Assembly: GCF_012295575.1 (NCBI RefSeq)
Contig: NZ_CP051180.1
Coordinates: 1,426,001-1,490,000, forward strand
Length of the DNA stretch: 64,000 bases
From: Ferrimonas lipolytica
Lineage (GTDB): Bacteria; Pseudomonadota; Gammaproteobacteria; Enterobacterales; Shewanellaceae
Reading direction: 5' to 3'
Below the pieces are notes generated by a model. That model made no database searches. It was not told the DNA's origin and saw nothing but the letters and a program-made list of their open reading frames with translations. Both the position numbers and the translations under genes were made by a program. Below, piece by piece: positions 1 to 6,573 of the stretch (the stretch's first letter is position 1; each line of letters starts with the position of its first letter).

Positions 1-471
1 ATGCCATATACCGCGCTACAGATGGAAGGCCGTGACATCTACATCCGCGAAGGGTGTGTAGGCTGCCACAGCCAGATGATCCGTCCGTTCCGCGCTGAAA
101 CTGAGCGATACGGTCACTACAGCGTTGCCGGTGAAAGCGTTTGGGAACACCCGTTCCTTTGGGGTTCTAAGCGTACCGGTCCTGACTTGGCTCGTGTTGG
201 CGGTCGTTACTCCGATGATTGGCACCGAGTTCACCTTATCGATCCCCGTGCCGTTGTACCAGAGTCCAACATGCCCGGTTTCCCTTGGTTAGAGGAAAAC
301 CGAGTTGATAGCTCCGACACCGTTGCCAAGTTGAAACTGTTCCGCGATAACTTTGGCGTACCATACGGCAGTGACGAAGAGTTGGAACAGGATGCAGCAA
401 CCTTGGCTGATAAGACTGAAATGGACGCACTGATTGCCTACTTACAGGTTCTCGGTACTGGTCTCAAATAA
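1..471 (+). CDS. ccoO: cbb3-type cytochrome c oxidase subunit II, C-terminal part
   Basis: Membrane-anchored monohaem cytochrome c subunit that passes electrons to the catalytic CcoN subunit. The single CxxCH haem motif (CVGCH, residues 19-23 of the visible part) is followed by the family block [15 protein letters not shown] and by [15 protein letters not shown]. The distal ligand methionine is probably the one in ESNMPGFPW. Only 156 residues are visible against about 200 for the family, and the N-terminal membrane helix is missing. The ATG at base 1 is therefore an internal methionine and the gene starts before the window. It is followed after 7 bases by ccoQ. Confidence 0.95.
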
Positions 472-478
472 GGAATTG

Positions 479-640
479 ATGATGACTATCGGAACGTTTC
501 AAGCTTATTACACCCTGACGCTGTTCGTAATCATGATCGGCATTATTGGTTGGGCCTACTCTAAGCGAAACCGCAGTAGCTTCGATGAAGCAGCTGATTT
601 GGTGTTTGCCGATGAGTCCGAACGGACTGATAAGGAGTAG
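479..640 (+). CDS. ccoQ: cbb3 oxidase small subunit CcoQ
   Basis: A 53-residue protein with one membrane helix (about residues 8-24, TLTLFVIMIGIIGWAYS) and a charged cytoplasmic tail ending in DESERTDKE. This is the layout of CcoQ/FixQ, the small accessory subunit that stabilises the oxidase. There are two adjacent in-frame ATGs (479 and 482). AAGGA at 470-474 lies 4 bases before the first and 7 before the second, so 482 may be the true start. An in-frame extension upstream to 434 would run back into ccoO and lacks support. It sits between ccoO and ccoP as in other proteobacteria. Confidence 0.88.
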   Translation: MMTIGTFQAYYTLTLFVIMIGIIGWAYSKRNRSSFDEAADLVFADESERTDKE

Positions 641-646
641 CACTAA

Positions 647-1999
647 ATGAATACATTTTTAAGCCTAATGGTCATGTTCTGCACCACTGTGGTGTTGGTT
701 GGCTGTTTCTTTTTGCTTCGTCACTGTTTGAAGAACAACACCGATGTTAAAGAAGGTGAGTCCATGGGACACTCCTTTGATGGCATCGAGGAGATGAATA
801 ACCCGCTACCTAAATGGTGGTCGGTGATGTTCTTTATCACCATTATCTACTCGGTAGGTTACTTGGTGTTGTTCCCTGGTTTTGGTAACTTCGCCGGGGT
901 CCTGAACTGGAGTTCATCTAACCAAGCGGTGTTGAGCTTAGCTGAATCAGAAGAGGCTGCTGCAGTAGCTAAAGCTGAAGGCACTCAGGTTATGGTGCAA
1001 TACGACCGAGAAGTAGCACAGGCAGATGATAAGTTTGGTCCTATCTTCGCTGCGTTTGCAGCTAAGCCAATTGAAGCGCTTGCCGCAGATCCGGATGCCA
1101 CCAAGGTTGGTCAGCGCCTGTTTTTACAAAACTGTGCCCTTTGTCATGGCTCCGACGCCCGTGGCTCACGCGGTTTTCCTAACTTAACTGACGCCGATTG
1201 GCTGTATGGCGGTAGCCCTGAAACCATCAAAGCGTCATTGCTGCATGGTCGAAACGGCATGATGCCGCCCAAAGGTGGCTTACCAATTGACGACGCGGAA
1301 GTACCGGCGTTGGTTGAGTATGTGCGTAGCCTTTCTGGGACTCCTCACGACAAATTGATGGCATCGGAAGGACTCGCTTCATACCAAAAGGGCTGTTTTG
1401 CCTGTCATGGTATGGCCGGTGAAGGTAACCAAGCGCTTGGCGCCCCAGCGTTAAATGACACCGTATGGCTATATGGTAGCGGTCGTGCTGACATTACCCA
1501 CTCCATCGTCAATGGTCGTTCTGGCAAAATGCCAGCATGGGACAAGGTACTAGGCGAAGATAAGGTTCACCTTATCACCGCTTACGTATACAGCCTCTCA
1601 GTTGGTAAAACTGCCGAGGTTAACGCTAACATCGCGCCAGTTAAAGCGCGACCTGGCGCACCTGCTAGCTCGAGCAATGACGACACAAGCACTGATTTCG
1701 CTGCGTTAGCCAGCCGTCCAATGGAAGAGCTTGCTACTGATGTCGATGCTCAGGCAGCCGGTAAGACGTTGTTTGCTGCCAACTGTACTGTCTGTCATGG
1801 TTCAGAAGGTCAAGGTATGGGGGCTTTCCCTAATCTAACCGATTCCGAATGGATCTATGGTGGCACCACCGCTGACATCAAAACCACTATCATGCACGGT
1901 CGTACCGGTGCTGCTGGTAATATGCCGGCGTGGGATAAGGTGTTGGGCGAGGACAAAGTCCACGTTCTTAGCTCCTATGTTTACAGTCTAAGCAACTGA
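647..1999 (+). CDS. ccoP: cbb3 oxidase subunit III with three haem c domains
   Basis: Electron-entry subunit of cbb3 oxidase. It has two N-terminal membrane helices (about residues 5-25 and 58-77) around the conserved GHSFDGIEEMNNPLPKWW block, then periplasmic cytochrome c domains. Haem motifs are at C163-ALC-H167, C250-FAC-H254 and C380-TVC-H384. Most CcoP/FixP proteins have two such domains and about 300 residues; this one has 450 and three. Domain 3 (about 350-450) shares FPNLTD and IYGG-type residues with domain 1, and an identical 14-residue stretch MPAWDKVLGEDKVH with domain 2 (295-308 and 426-439). A proline/serine/aspartate-rich linker (about 330-350) joins it. AAGGAG at 632-637 supports the start. 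Tri-haem CcoP is known in Neisseria. Confidence 0.95.
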   Translation: MNTFLSLMVMFCTTVVLVGCFFLLRHCLKNNTDVKEGESMGHSFDGIEEMNNPLPKWWSVMFFITIIYSVGYLVLFPGFGNFAGVLNWSSSNQAVLSLAESEEAAAVAKAEGTQVMVQYDREVAQADDKFGPIFAAFAAKPIEALAADPDATKVGQRLFLQNCALCHGSDARGSRGFPNLTDADWLYGGSPETIKASLLHGRNGMMPPKGGLPIDDAEVPALVEYVRSLSGTPHDKLMASEGLASYQKGCFACHGMAGEGNQALGAPALNDTVWLYGSGRADITHSIVNGRSGKMPAWDKVLGEDKVHLITAYVYSLSVGKTAEVNANIAPVKARPGAPASSSNDDTSTDFAALASRPMEELATDVDAQAAGKTLFAANCTVCHGSEGQGMGAFPNLTDSEWIYGGTTADIKTTIMHGRTGAAGNMPAWDKVLGEDKVHVLSSYVYSLSN

Positions 2000-2074: not shown

Positions 2075-2551
2075 ATGAAAGTACAACCATGGTACCAGCA
2101 GTTTTGGCCTTGGTTTCTGATTGTCTTACCATTGTGTGCAGTCAGTGCTTCGCTTTACACCTTCTATCTTGCTAATACTTCCCAGTTCTCACTCGTATCT
2201 GAGGATTACTACAAGAAAGGTAAAGGCATCAATCAAGATTTAAGTCGTCTTCGTGCCGCTAAATCATTAGGGTTGGTGTTTCGAATCGATCAAACTGGCA
2301 ATACCATTGCACTAAGCCAACACGGAGGTGATGAGATAGGTACCGCTCTCACTATTCGCTTCCACCACGCAACCATTGCCGCCAACGACTTTGAACAGGT
2401 TGTTACCGCCGACGGTGACGGCCACTACCGCATTGTTACTGATACACCAGTGACCGGAAAATGGCGGGTTCAGATTGAAAGCTACGATTCATCGTGGCAG
2501 CTAAAAACAAAAATAACGCTGCCGTTGTCAGACTCTCACTGGTTAAATTAA
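2075..2551 (+). CDS. FixH family protein (cbb3 oxidase assembly)
   Basis: A 158-residue protein with one N-terminal membrane helix (about residues 14-32) after PWYQQFWPWFLI, then a periplasmic domain. The YYKKGKGINQDLSR stretch after the helix is typical of FixH-type proteins, which are needed for cbb3 oxidase biogenesis together with the CcoI copper pump. AAAGGA lies 8 bases before the ATG. The stop codon at 2549-2551 overlaps the likely ribosome binding site of ccoI, so the two are probably translationally coupled. Confidence 0.85.
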   Translation: MKVQPWYQQFWPWFLIVLPLCAVSASLYTFYLANTSQFSLVSEDYYKKGKGINQDLSRLRAAKSLGLVFRIDQTGNTIALSQHGGDEIGTALTIRFHHATIAANDFEQVVTADGDGHYRIVTDTPVTGKWRVQIESYDSSWQLKTKITLPLSDSHWLN

Positions 2552-2560
2552 GGCTCTTCT

Positions 2561-4924
2561 GTGTCGCAAAGCTGTTTTCACTGCGCCGAGCCGATCCCGG
2601 CTAACACGCACTTTTCTAGCGATATCAATGGCACTGATGAAGCCATGTGTTGCCCCGGCTGTGCCGCCGTAGCCGATGCTATTATGGCCGCTGGCCTTAC
2701 CGATTATTATCGATACCGCACCGATGCCGGCCAGCGCCAAAACGTGCCGGCGGAGTTAGCGACACTTGCAGCCTACGATCTGGCTGAAGTTCAACAAGAG
2801 TTTGTTGCTCAAAACGGAAATTTTAGTGAAGTGTTGCTAAGCCTCGATGGGATCAGCTGTGCTGCCTGCGCTTGGCTAATCGAAAAGCACCTACATCGGA
2901 TTGATGGCATTAGTCGGATCGACGTTAATACCACCACACAACGAGCAGTATTGGTGTGGGATAACAATCTGATTTCTCTCTCTCAGGTATTAACTGAAGT
3001 CGCCACTATTGGCTACCGCGCCGCGCCGTTTCAACTCGACCAGCAAGAGCAAGAGAACGCCAAGCAAAGTCAAACATTGCTATTACGGGTTGGCCTAGCG
3101 GGACTTGCAGCAATGCAGGTGATGATGCTTGCCGTGGCGCTGTATACTGGATATTTCTACGATCTCGAAGTTGAATACCGCAACTATTTTCGGTGGGTCA
3201 GCTTGGTGTTTGCCACCCCAGTAGTGTTGTATTCAGCCCAGCCATTTTATTTCAGTGCCCTGCGAGCACTATTCAGCCTAAAAGTGAATATGGACGTGCC
3301 GGTGTCGCTCGCCATCGTTTTGGCCTACGGTGCCTCCGTCGCAGCAACGGTCTCCGGCAGAGGCGAGGTCTACTTCGAATCAGTGGCGATGTTCACCTTC
3401 TTTTTATTACTTGGGCGCTTAGCGGAACAAAGGGCACGACGTAAAGCATCTGAGCACGCCAGTAACCGCCAAAAGCTGATCCCAGTTACCGCCTCCATTG
3501 TTACCGCTGACGGCGTGATGCAGGTTGTGGCGAAAAGCGTTCAGGTCAGCAATACCGTGCGCATCCTACCGGGAGAAAGCCTGCCAGCGGATGGGGTGAT
3601 CTCTAGCGGTAGCACAGAGATTAATGAAGCGATGTTAACTGGCGAAGAACGCCCAGTCGCCAAATCTATCGGTGATACGGTATTCGCCGGTACCGTTAAC
3701 CTTGGCCAGCCGTTTGATTATCAGGTCACCGCCATCGGTGCTGAGCTTAGAATCAACACCTTGGTTCGTCTGCAGGAACAAGCGGCAATCGATAAACCTG
3801 CTATTGCACAACGTGCTGATGAGATAGCAGCTTATTTTGTACCAGCGTTGCTCGTTATTGCCGCGCTTACCTATGGTTATTGGCATTTCGTTAAACCGGC
3901 TGATGCCTTTTGGATAACGCTGTCGGTATTAGTGGCGACCTGCCCATGTGCACTTGCCCTAGCAACACCAGCAGCACTAACCTGTGGTACCAACCGCATG
4001 ATGAAACACGGCCTGTTAGTCCGAAGTGCTCGAGTTCTTGAAACCTTACCTAAACTTACTACGTTGCTGTTTGATAAAACCGGTACGCTTACCTACGGCA
4101 AGTTTTCACTACAACACACTGAGCTATTGCAATCCGATGTCGACCAACAACGTATTGTCGCAATAGCTGCAGCGCTGGAAAGCCATAGTTCTCACCCATA
4201 TGCTTCCGCGTTTGCGCCATTTCAAACCGCGAGCGTTGTCGCCAATACCAATCGCAATGTCATTGGCCAAGGTTTGATTGGGGTGGTTGATGGTGTTGAA
4301 TATCGAATCGGCCGTGCCTCTTTTGCCGATGGCACTGACGACAACTATATCTACCTTGCGAATAACAGTGGTGCACTAGCACGGTTCCTTGTCAGCGATA
4401 GTATCCGCAACGACGCAGCCTCAACCATTACTGAACTTCGCCTGCGTAAGTTAAACTGCCAAATGCTCTCGGGCGATCCCAACCCGAGTTCACTAACGGT
4501 TGCCAACGAACTGAATCTCGATAGTGCCAAGCATAATTGCTCACCGGAGCAAAAACTTGATTATCTCAAGCGCTGTCGTCAACAGGGGCAAACCGTTGCC
4601 ATGTTTGGCGACGGCATTAACGATGGTCCGGTTTTAGCTGGTGCGGACGTATCGGTTGCAATGGGTCATGGTACCGATTTGGCCAAGTGCCATGCGGATT
4701 TGATCCTACTGGGAGACAAATTACAGCCGATTATTGACGGTATTAAGGTAGCTAAACGAACCAATAGAGTGATTAAGCAGAATTTGTTGCTGTCGCTGTG
4801 TTACAACAGCCTTATCGTGCCATTGGCAGTGTCTGGTTTGGTGGCGCCCTATGTAGCAGCAGCGGGTATGTCACTTAGTTCATTAGTGGTATTAGCCAAC
4901 AGTTTGCGGCTTCTTAAGGATTAG
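2561..4924 (+). CDS. ccoI: copper-translocating P1B-type ATPase CcoI/FixI
   Basis: Inner-membrane copper pump supplying cbb3 oxidase assembly. The 787 residues show an N-terminal cysteine-rich region (CFHC, CCPGC), a heavy-metal-associated domain with GISCAACAW (CAAC at 100-103), a membrane helix pair, the TGEE actuator motif, the intramembrane CPCALALATPAALT metal site (about 463), the phosphorylation motif DKTGTLT (about 505) and GDGINDGPVLAGADV (about 683). The start is GTG at 2561, with AAGG overlapping the fixH stop. The N-terminal zinc-finger-like cysteines before the HMA domain are usual for the CcoI/FixI subgroup. ccoS follows after 2 bases. Confidence 0.95.
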   Translation: MSQSCFHCAEPIPANTHFSSDINGTDEAMCCPGCAAVADAIMAAGLTDYYRYRTDAGQRQNVPAELATLAAYDLAEVQQEFVAQNGNFSEVLLSLDGISCAACAWLIEKHLHRIDGISRIDVNTTTQRAVLVWDNNLISLSQVLTEVATIGYRAAPFQLDQQEQENAKQSQTLLLRVGLAGLAAMQVMMLAVALYTGYFYDLEVEYRNYFRWVSLVFATPVVLYSAQPFYFSALRALFSLKVNMDVPVSLAIVLAYGASVAATVSGRGEVYFESVAMFTFFLLLGRLAEQRARRKASEHASNRQKLIPVTASIVTADGVMQVVAKSVQVSNTVRILPGESLPADGVISSGSTEINEAMLTGEERPVAKSIGDTVFAGTVNLGQPFDYQVTAIGAELRINTLVRLQEQAAIDKPAIAQRADEIAAYFVPALLVIAALTYGYWHFVKPADAFWITLSVLVATCPCALALATPAALTCGTNRMMKHGLLVRSARVLETLPKLTTLLFDKTGTLTYGKFSLQHTELLQSDVDQQRIVAIAAALESHSSHPYASAFAPFQTASVVANTNRNVIGQGLIGVVDGVEYRIGRASFADGTDDNYIYLANNSGALARFLVSDSIRNDAASTITELRLRKLNCQMLSGDPNPSSLTVANELNLDSAKHNCSPEQKLDYLKRCRQQGQTVAMFGDGINDGPVLAGADVSVAMGHGTDLAKCHADLILLGDKLQPIIDGIKVAKRTNRVIKQNLLLSLCYNSLIVPLAVSGLVAPYVAAAGMSLSSLVVLANSLRLLKD

Positions 4925-5787: not shown

Positions 5788-6573
5788 ATGACGTTCGAGC
5801 GTACTAACTTTAGAGATCAATTGTCCTCTAAAAGCAGTGAAGACAATAAAGTTGGACTCTGTAATGAGATCCATTGCCACAATTGCAGCATGAAATCGCT
5901 GTGTATTCCATTCTCGCTTAACCTCAATGATATAGACGATCTCGACTCCATTATCGAGCGTAAACGTCCTATCCATAAAGGCGACTTGCTGTTCCAATCG
6001 GGTCAGCCACTCAAGTCACTTTACGCTATCCGTTCTGGCTCAATAAAGTCCTACACCATCACCGAGTCAGGTGAAGAACAGATAACCGCGTTTCATTTAG
6101 CTGGCGACGTGATTGGTTTTGACGGGATCCATAAAGACTGTCACCAAAGTTTTGCTCAGGCGCTTGAAACCGCAATGGTGTGCGAAATCCCATACGATAC
6201 TCTCGATGCACTCTCGGCAGAATCACCGGCACTACGCCATCAAATGATGCGTTTGATGAGTCACGAAATTGTTAGCGATCAAGAGATGATTCTGCTTCTG
6301 TCTAAAAAGAATGCCGAACAGCGCCTCGCTGCATTTCTGAGTAACCTAGCTAACCGTTTTGGCAGTCGTGGTTTTTCGAGCAAGGAATACCGCTTGACCA
6401 TGACCCGCGGTGATATCGGTAACTACCTTGGTCTTACGGTCGAAACCATTAGCCGTTTGTTAGGCCGCTTCCAAAAATCGGGTTGGATTGATGTCCAAGG
6501 TAAGTACATTAAGATCCTTGATATGGCTGTGTTAACCAAGGCCTCTGGTCAACAAGGCAATCAAGGCAGCTGA
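5788..6573 (+). CDS. fnr: FNR/EtrA-type oxygen-responsive transcription regulator
   Basis: CRP/FNR family regulator of 261 residues. An N-terminal cysteine cluster C25..C30-HN-C33-SMKSL-C39 and central C132 (ETAMVCEIP) match the four [4Fe-4S] ligands of E. coli FNR (the last three of the cluster plus the central one). A cAMP-fold domain follows, then a helix-turn-helix with [15 protein letters not shown]. The recognition residues E, S and R are as in E. coli FNR, so TTGATnnnnATCAA should be the target. It begins 16 bases after the TauE-like gene and may be read with the cbb3 assembly genes, placing the oxygen sensor with the oxidase it usually regulates. An upstream ATG at 5784 is out of frame. 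Confidence 0.95.

Follow-up and report, generated by a model that had tools for sequence, protein, structure and literature searches.

The gene at 647-1999 of the window (the whole stretch of 64,000 nt of Ferrimonas lipolytica DNA that was analysed) encodes, by homology, CcoP, the subunit through which a cbb3 oxidase, a high-affinity enzyme of oxygen reduction, takes up electrons. The architecture of this CcoP is altered, in that three haem c domains are predicted from the sequence instead of two. The third domain (D3) is, by sequence comparison, a mosaic of parts like those of the first two (D1 and D2). We propose, with a probability of about 0.5, that D3 is a tethered electron carrier, through which electrons from the bc1 complex would enter CcoP.

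The cco cluster of Ferrimonas lipolytica

The ccoP gene lay in a ccoNOQP-H cluster, with the genes for CcoO and CcoQ directly upstream and that for CcoH downstream. The genes in this part of the window were as follows.

1..471, + strand: ccoO/fixO, mono-haem subunit II (FixO, 6.1e-69), with its 5' end cut by the window
482..640, + strand: ccoQ/fixQ, 52 aa (FixQ, 6.3e-10)
647..1999, + strand: ccoP, 450 aa, three haem c domains (TIGR00782, FixP_N and three Cytochrome_CBB3 stretches)
2075..2551, + strand: ccoH/fixH assembly factor (FixH, 3.7e-38)
2561..4924, + strand: ccoI/fixI-like copper P-type ATPase (open reading frame, named by eye and from gene order)

The full frame of ccoO (L135) was 203 aa long and contained one CxxCH. 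CcoN was found upstream of the window, as a COX1 match at G000:C1:1424462-1425751, where G000 is the window's genome. The frame at 2561..4924 is putatively ccoI/fixI-like. Downstream of the cco assembly genes, at 5788-6573, was a gene that by eye encodes an FNR/EtrA-like regulator.

In the profile search, CcoP matched TIGR00782 with 347 bits (cut-off 179.95). It also gave an N-terminal FixP_N anchor (4.6e-22) and three Cytochrome_CBB3 stretches. The three CxxCH motifs, at residues 163, 250 and 380, were read from the 450-aa frame, as the preliminary description had reported; two are the normal number. No other ccoP was found in the 4.13-Mb single-contig genome. Two further matches reached just 27 and 22 bits, and were by eye CoxB and a c4-like protein.

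Domain layout and haem ligands

The domains of CcoP were placed as follows.

1040..1345, + strand: haem domain 1, ca. residues 132-233, with CxxCH 163 and Met-ligand motif GRNGMMPPKGGLP (alignments)
1346..1600, + strand: haem domain 2, ca. residues 234-318, with CxxCH 250 and Met-ligand motif GKMPAWDKVLGEDKVH (alignments)
1601..1690, + strand: linker with Ala, Pro and Ser that joins domains 2 and 3; residues 322-347 with pLDDT under 50
1691..1996, + strand: haem domain 3, ca. residues 349-450, with CxxCH 380 and, ahead of the Met ligand, a 3-residue insertion (GRTG-AAG-NMPAW)
1892..1930, + strand: approximate mosaic breakpoint, M416 to A428 around GRTG (diagnostic columns)

The linker between D2 and D3 was 28, 29 and 27 aa long in the three species with a tri-haem CcoP (see below), lengths that depend on the cut used. 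In all three, the CxxCH and the Met of NMPAW were kept in D3, and the 3-residue insertion before the Met was the same. This insertion was absent from the aligned D1 and D2 rows. Longer insertions before the Met were present in many alphaproteobacterial-looking D1s.

The AlphaFold model placed the helices of D3 between residues 351 and 449, with pLDDT of 58-89 in blocks of ten. The model as a whole was poor (mean pLDDT 60.3, pTM 0.36), and was used for helix content and linker disorder only. With a CxxCH, a distal Met and a predicted helical fold, D3 has the features of a class I cytochrome c, as read from sequence and model, and is expected to carry a bound haem.

Distribution of the third domain

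A tri-haem CcoP was found in 3 of the 14 Ferrimonas genomes. The carriers besides the window's genome were Ferrimonas senticii DSM 18821 (L034/G009; 75 per cent identity) and the uncultured Ferrimonas isolate 1028 (L033/G010; 85 per cent identity). The other 11 genomes were di-haem, and their CcoP ended at about residue 320, without linker or third domain. Ten of these 11 had two CxxCH by count; the eleventh, G001, was classed as di-haem from its match range and its 325-aa frame. The set of 47 di-haem CcoPs used below excludes G001, L064 (N-terminus missing) and identical sequences. L033 and L034 were dropped as the same genes as L004 and L005, and L065-L070 were without a CcoP frame. No tri-haem CcoP of Ferrimonas was found in the open-licence literature.

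An assembly or frame error, with two genes read as one, would produce a false third domain. We saw no sign of such an artefact and regard it as extremely improbable, since the same architecture occurred in one open frame each in three separate assemblies (that of the window being a single contig), among which D3 had diverged to 64-85 per cent identity.

A rooted tree of CcoN, CcoO, CcoH and part of CcoI was made with 11 Shewanella-family rows as the outgroup. In this tree the tri-haem species were monophyletic, with an ultrafast support of 99, and their clade lay inside the genus, where it grouped with G002, G003, G005, G006 and G013 (support 100). The three species were also monophyletic in the tree of the aa3 CoxA (0.964). 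This monophyly, nested in the genus, suggested that, most simply, the third domain was gained once within Ferrimonas.

Wider samples were also searched. The phylum sample gave a match in 273 of 398 genomes, the class sample in 170 of 369 and the order sample in 231 of 394; the search for a third domain covered the matches listed, and is not a count of tri-haem CcoPs. Among the matches listed in the class and order samples, none but the window's own genome reached residue 450. The longest other span among the matches listed was that of G714, which ran to residue 379 with a stop inside. From the phylum sample 20 regions were fetched, including the ten listed rows with frames of at least 370 aa, and one of the 20 contained three CxxCH (L077, Neisseria-like).

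Altogether, 60 CcoP regions outside the family-level set were read. They gave 49 distinct frames that passed the filter, 48 with two CxxCH and one (L077) with three; 10 regions failed the filter (five of them with two CxxCH), and one was a duplicate. The recovery of L077 indicated that the survey was able to detect tri-haem CcoPs.

In the tri-haem CcoP of L077 (from G161), the linker is rich in Ala and Pro and the third domain is c5-like; by eye the protein resembles the Neisseria form.

Mosaic make-up of domain 3

The 47 distinct di-haem CcoPs, from Ferrimonas and the Shewanella family, were used to build half-domain HMMs. Against these, the haem half of D3 from the three species scored 81-83 bits to D1 and 48-53 bits to D2. 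On the other hand, the Met half scored 47-72 bits to D2 and 5.5-7 bits to D1. D1 and D2 of the same three proteins scored consistently in both halves. This comparison is the fair test of a mosaic, because the columns are matched.

The 20 diagnostic columns along D3 read 12111211122222222222, of which 18 fit a single switch (permutation p 0.003). Upstream of the breakpoint D3 was mostly domain-1-like, and downstream it was domain-2-like. The helix that precedes domain 1 (FAAFAAKPIEALA) also has a counterpart that precedes domain 3 (FAALASRPMEELA).

The halves of D3 were also compared by BLAST with 99 D1 and 99 D2 sequences. The medians favoured D1 for the haem half and D2 for the Met half in each of five groups; in this set the D2 windows start later and the D1 windows are longer, which favours D1 for the haem half. 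The mosaic that the preliminary description had noticed was thus confirmed at the level of sequence, with a domain-1-like haem half and a domain-2-like Met-ligand half. Nor did D3 fall into an unrelated cytochrome family, the finding that was to count against that description, as it matched D1 and D2 of CcoP. We infer as the simplest history that a D1-D2 stretch was copied, and that its middle was lost by recombination around GRxG.

Cytochromes c4, c5 and c6 were considered as sources of D3 and rejected. Matches in the same genome besides CcoP were weak, and CcoP chains were the best in the PDB search. With D3 as the query in its own genome, CcoP was followed by two frames that are, by eye, CoxB-like (33 bits) and c4-like (16 bits).

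A foreign CcoP, brought in by gene transfer and later reshaped, is a less likely candidate source. It concerns the origin of D3 and not its function. Several matches of single sequences leaned this way. The haem half of L001 D3 matched D1 of another family in the order best (L203, 87.0 bits, against 80.9 for its own D1), the full-length D3 of L001 did best with D1 of L203, L197 and L195, and the Met half of L005 D3 scored higher with D2 of the order (48.1) than with D2 of Ferrimonas and Shewanella (45.8). HMMs of distant CcoPs hardly separated D1 from D2 for the haem half (73-76 against 71-74 bits), so that the preference was nearly gone, and for the Met half of L005 they gave a tie (28.3 against 28.7 bits). 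However, these HMMs were weak, being made from 4 D1 and 9 D2 sequences only, with the split rule failing for the others. The Met halves of L001 and L004 were best with D2 of Ferrimonas and Shewanella (53.9 and 57.4), and the BLAST medians kept the D1 and D2 preferences in all five groups. The halves, of about 55 and 28 residues, have too few positions for a decisive tree.

The 14-residue identity between domains 2 and 3

An exact match of 14 residues between D2 and D3 had also been described, and it was verified: MPAWDKVLGEDKVH was identical at 295-308 and 426-439. In the DNA, 32 of the 42 bases agreed and 9 of the 14 codons differed. Domain 2 of the di-haem relatives already has the motif MPAW[KDN]..LG[EK][DEQ]KVH, in some with MPAWD. 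This suggested that the stretch is an ordinary domain-2 motif of the family, and the identity alone neither dates nor proves copying.

The Met half of L001 D3 agreed with its own D2 at 21 of 28 positions, and with D2 of the other two species at 20 of 28 each. That of L004 agreed at 23 of 29 with its own D2 and at 24 of 29 with D2 of L001; that of L005 at 17 of 28 with its own, against 16 and 15 with the others. A fresh duplication and an ongoing gene conversion between D2 and D3 were rejected, as the Met half was hardly closer to D2 of its own species. The earlier view that D3 is not a fresh duplication agrees with this and with the 10 differences in 42 bases.

Constraint and change on the tri-haem branch

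The dN/dS of D3 was 0.07, 0.14 and 0.16 for the three species pairs. For D1 and D2 it was 0.11, 0.03 and 0.05 where defined, dS being undefined for 3 of the 6 pairs. These values give no sign of a stronger constraint on D3 than on D1 or D2. D3 also diverged more: the distant pairs were identical at 67/105 and 70/105 positions in D3, against 86/108 and 87/108 in D1.

The rest of CcoP had changed faster on the tri-haem branch. CcoP 1-318 had a branch length of 0.333 against 0.153 for CcoN, CcoO, CcoH and CcoI together, or 2.2 times. The same ratio was about 1 in two di-haem clades (0.070 against 0.072, and 0.193 against 0.209). In 30 bootstraps the ratio of the tri-haem branch was 1.8-2.9, and it was above that of clade A in 29 and above that of clade B in all 30. 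This test was made without five Shewanella-family rows, identical copies having been removed earlier.

The change was greatest in domain 2, of which the stem was 0.474 on the tri-haem branch, against 0.000 and 0.075 in the two di-haem clades. In 60 bootstraps it was 0.22-0.84, against 0.02-0.15 in clade B. The N-terminal part of CcoP showed a smaller excess than domain 2 (0.367 against 0.180 and 0.245). The stem of domain 1 (0.201) exceeded that of clade A (0.021) but not that of clade B (0.256), and the stem of CcoO was also somewhat longer on the tri-haem branch (0.154 against 0.018 and 0.102).

No excess of changes was seen at the sites that at least 95 per cent of the di-haem relatives share: 7 of 143 were changed in all tri-haem species, and 9 of 158 in di-haem clade A. 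Two domain-2 sites that are at least 95 per cent conserved in the 47 di-haem relatives were changed on the tri-haem stem, residue 247 from M to Q and residue 279 from S to G/R.

Domain 2 may lie next to D3 or exchange electrons with it, or may have been relieved of part of its task. Its faster change could also reflect relaxed constraint instead of adaptation.

Possible partners and the missing caa3 oxidase

In the 14 Ferrimonas genomes, NirK (TIGR02376, E 0.001) was found in none, and neither was NirS. NrfA-type nitrite reductases were present in all 14, with 3 to 6 per genome. The preliminary description had pointed to a nitrite reductase as a possible partner; the NrfA type was the only one that turned up, and it did not track the third haem, being present in tri-haem and di-haem species alike.

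A short PF13442 frame was also present in all 14 genomes, and the copy in the window's genome (L106) is a c5-like monohaem protein. As this carrier was kept in every genome, D3 did not replace it. A c4-like frame was present in the window's genome as well (L003).

In the survey of haem-copper oxidases, each of the 14 genomes had one COX1 match of the aa3 type and one of the cbb3 type. A further, caa3-type COX1, in frames of 586-656 aa, was present in all 11 di-haem genomes (G001-G008 and G011-G013) and in none of the three tri-haem genomes (G000, G009 and G010). In the four loci read (L149-L152), the adjoining CoxB contained two CxxCH. This oxidase has relatives, with 75-76 per cent identity, in three more genomes, two of the same family and one of another. 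Of the genomes that lacked it, G000 is a single contig; the others are drafts, with a stated completeness of 100 per cent for G009 and 99 per cent for G010.

Loss of the caa3 oxidase is the simpler reading, since the tri-haem clade is nested among carriers. With one event on one branch (n = 1), this makes no statistical link between the third haem and the loss. The missing oxidase suits electron input through D3 better than electron exit, though on one branch only.

Two other observations were made here. In three of the four caa3 loci read, a short gene with the pattern ..SLWEL..IE.QLEK.GLSPAQIHV (by eye) lay near the COX1. A relative of COX1, in frames of 770-782 aa, was scattered over G004, G007, G008, G010, G011 and G012, of which G010 is tri-haem. 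By size and score we presume that it is perhaps a quinol-dependent NO reductase.

A proposed role for domain 3

In the scheme that we propose, the ancestor of the three Ferrimonas species would have gained a C-terminal third class-I cytochrome c domain made of CcoP-type parts, namely a stretch from the helix before domain 1, joined around GRxG to the Met-ligand half of domain 2. On its linker of about 28 residues, which has low confidence in the model, D3 could swing. Its electrons would come from the bc1 complex, either directly or by way of c4 or c5, and would pass to domain 2 and then to CcoO and CcoN. D3 would thereby play in cis the part that may fall to a soluble cytochrome in the relatives. 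Such a tethered carrier would matter more after the loss of the further cytochrome c oxidase.

The proposal was made because a Rhodobacter fusion of cytochrome cy to CcoP is reported to be active, and because bc1 feeds cbb3 in Shewanella. For Shewanella oneidensis, the text available from PMC4335978 names bc1 as the main electron source of cbb3, either directly or via a cytochrome c that it leaves undetermined. Sequence does not show which way the electrons flow, and the input role is our inference. The preliminary description had offered electron exit and entry side by side; entry is the one we favour, at roughly even odds, and exit to nitrite was not supported, with NirK and NirS in none of the 14 genomes and the NrfA type uncorrelated. 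The fuller picture, a natural fused relay from bc1 to cbb3 made from the first two haem domains, with D2 reshaped as its docking partner and the caa3 oxidase lost, is put forward as a tentative possibility.

Two comparisons speak against input. The third haem of Neisseria serves as a branch to nitrite reduction, with oxygen uptake near wild type after its loss. The linker of about 28 residues is also shorter than the ca. 45 that were proficient for cytochrome cy, though the geometry differs. The first of these is the precedent for an exit, in which D3 would be a branch point as in Neisseria gonorrhoeae, delivering electrons at low oxygen to a periplasmic acceptor. Candidate acceptors would be a peroxidase, an NrfA-type enzyme (which all 14 genomes have) or soluble cytochromes. 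In L001 and L005, D3 is more acidic than any other domain (net -6 and -7), as a separate docking surface might be; in L004, however, it is only -2, against -3 for D1. D3 is of CcoP type and not of c5 type, and the NrfA-type enzymes are as frequent in di-haem as in tri-haem species. The absence of NirK and NirS together with the missing caa3 oxidase disfavours an exit, which we consider rather unlikely.

It is less probable still that D3 is a neutral accretion, a domain copy that folds and is tolerated without a selected electron role. The greater divergence of D3 than of D1 between species would be expected of such a copy. The correlates come from a single origin, and the changed conserved sites were no more than in the control clade. 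On the other hand, D3 was kept in three species with low dN/dS and with its CxxCH, Met and 3-residue insertion intact, and the change in D2 coincides with it on the same branch. Electron input remains the reading that we prefer.

Comparison with known systems

The di-haem CcoPs of Ferrimonas and Shewanella share the FixP_N-type anchor, D1 and D2 with the tri-haem form, at 57-65 per cent identity (G015 at 42). With 3 tri-haem and 11 di-haem species, Ferrimonas offers a clean comparison of close relatives. The electron route from bc1 to cbb3, which the available part of PMC4335978 states to be uncertain for Shewanella, becomes testable in this group. The comparison would also test whether haem domains can join an oxidase as ready-made carriers.

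If the proposed role is correct, the Ferrimonas protein would parallel, as a natural form, the engineered bc1-cbb3 supercomplex of Rhodobacter capsulatus. In that supercomplex a cytochrome cy domain was fused to the C-terminus of CcoP, and it was reported to be active in the text available from PMC7876108, which also states that cytochrome cy linkers of ca. 45 residues are proficient in respiration. In both, the C-terminus of CcoP bears a haem c domain attached by a linker (PDB 6xkx/6xkz for the Rhodobacter fusion). According to the same text, the Rhodobacter fusion differs in being man-made, in that its domain is cytochrome cy, and in that cytochrome c1 is also fused to CcoP.

The tri-haem CcoP of Neisseria gonorrhoeae obtained its third domain from cytochrome c5, with the last 81 residues 74 per cent identical, and its third haem is used for the reduction of nitrite by NirK/AniA (Aspholm et al. 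2010, PMC2924362). In the part of that paper available, CcoP was di-haem in all other annotated cases as of 2010, and a single event was argued for Neisseria. The third haem is described as taking electrons from bc1 before the paths split, and its loss left oxygen uptake near wild type (PMC8552683, citing others, in the text available).

As far as these sources describe it, the Neisseria protein resembles that of Ferrimonas in having a C-terminal haem c domain after an Ala/Ser/Pro-rich stretch, with 439 residues there and 450 here. The linker is of 42 residues in Neisseria and of 27-29 in Ferrimonas with the cut used. The parallel drawn in the preliminary description does not extend to origin or partner. 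The third domain of Neisseria is c5-derived and that of Ferrimonas is made of parts of the D1 and D2 type of CcoP, and no counterpart of NirK/AniA, nor NirS, was found in the 14 Ferrimonas genomes. Since the Neisseria domain came from cytochrome c5, the tri-haem CcoP of Ferrimonas has a separate origin, and would represent a second, independent route to this form. It thus shows the same architecture as in Neisseria, with a different origin and probably a different partner.
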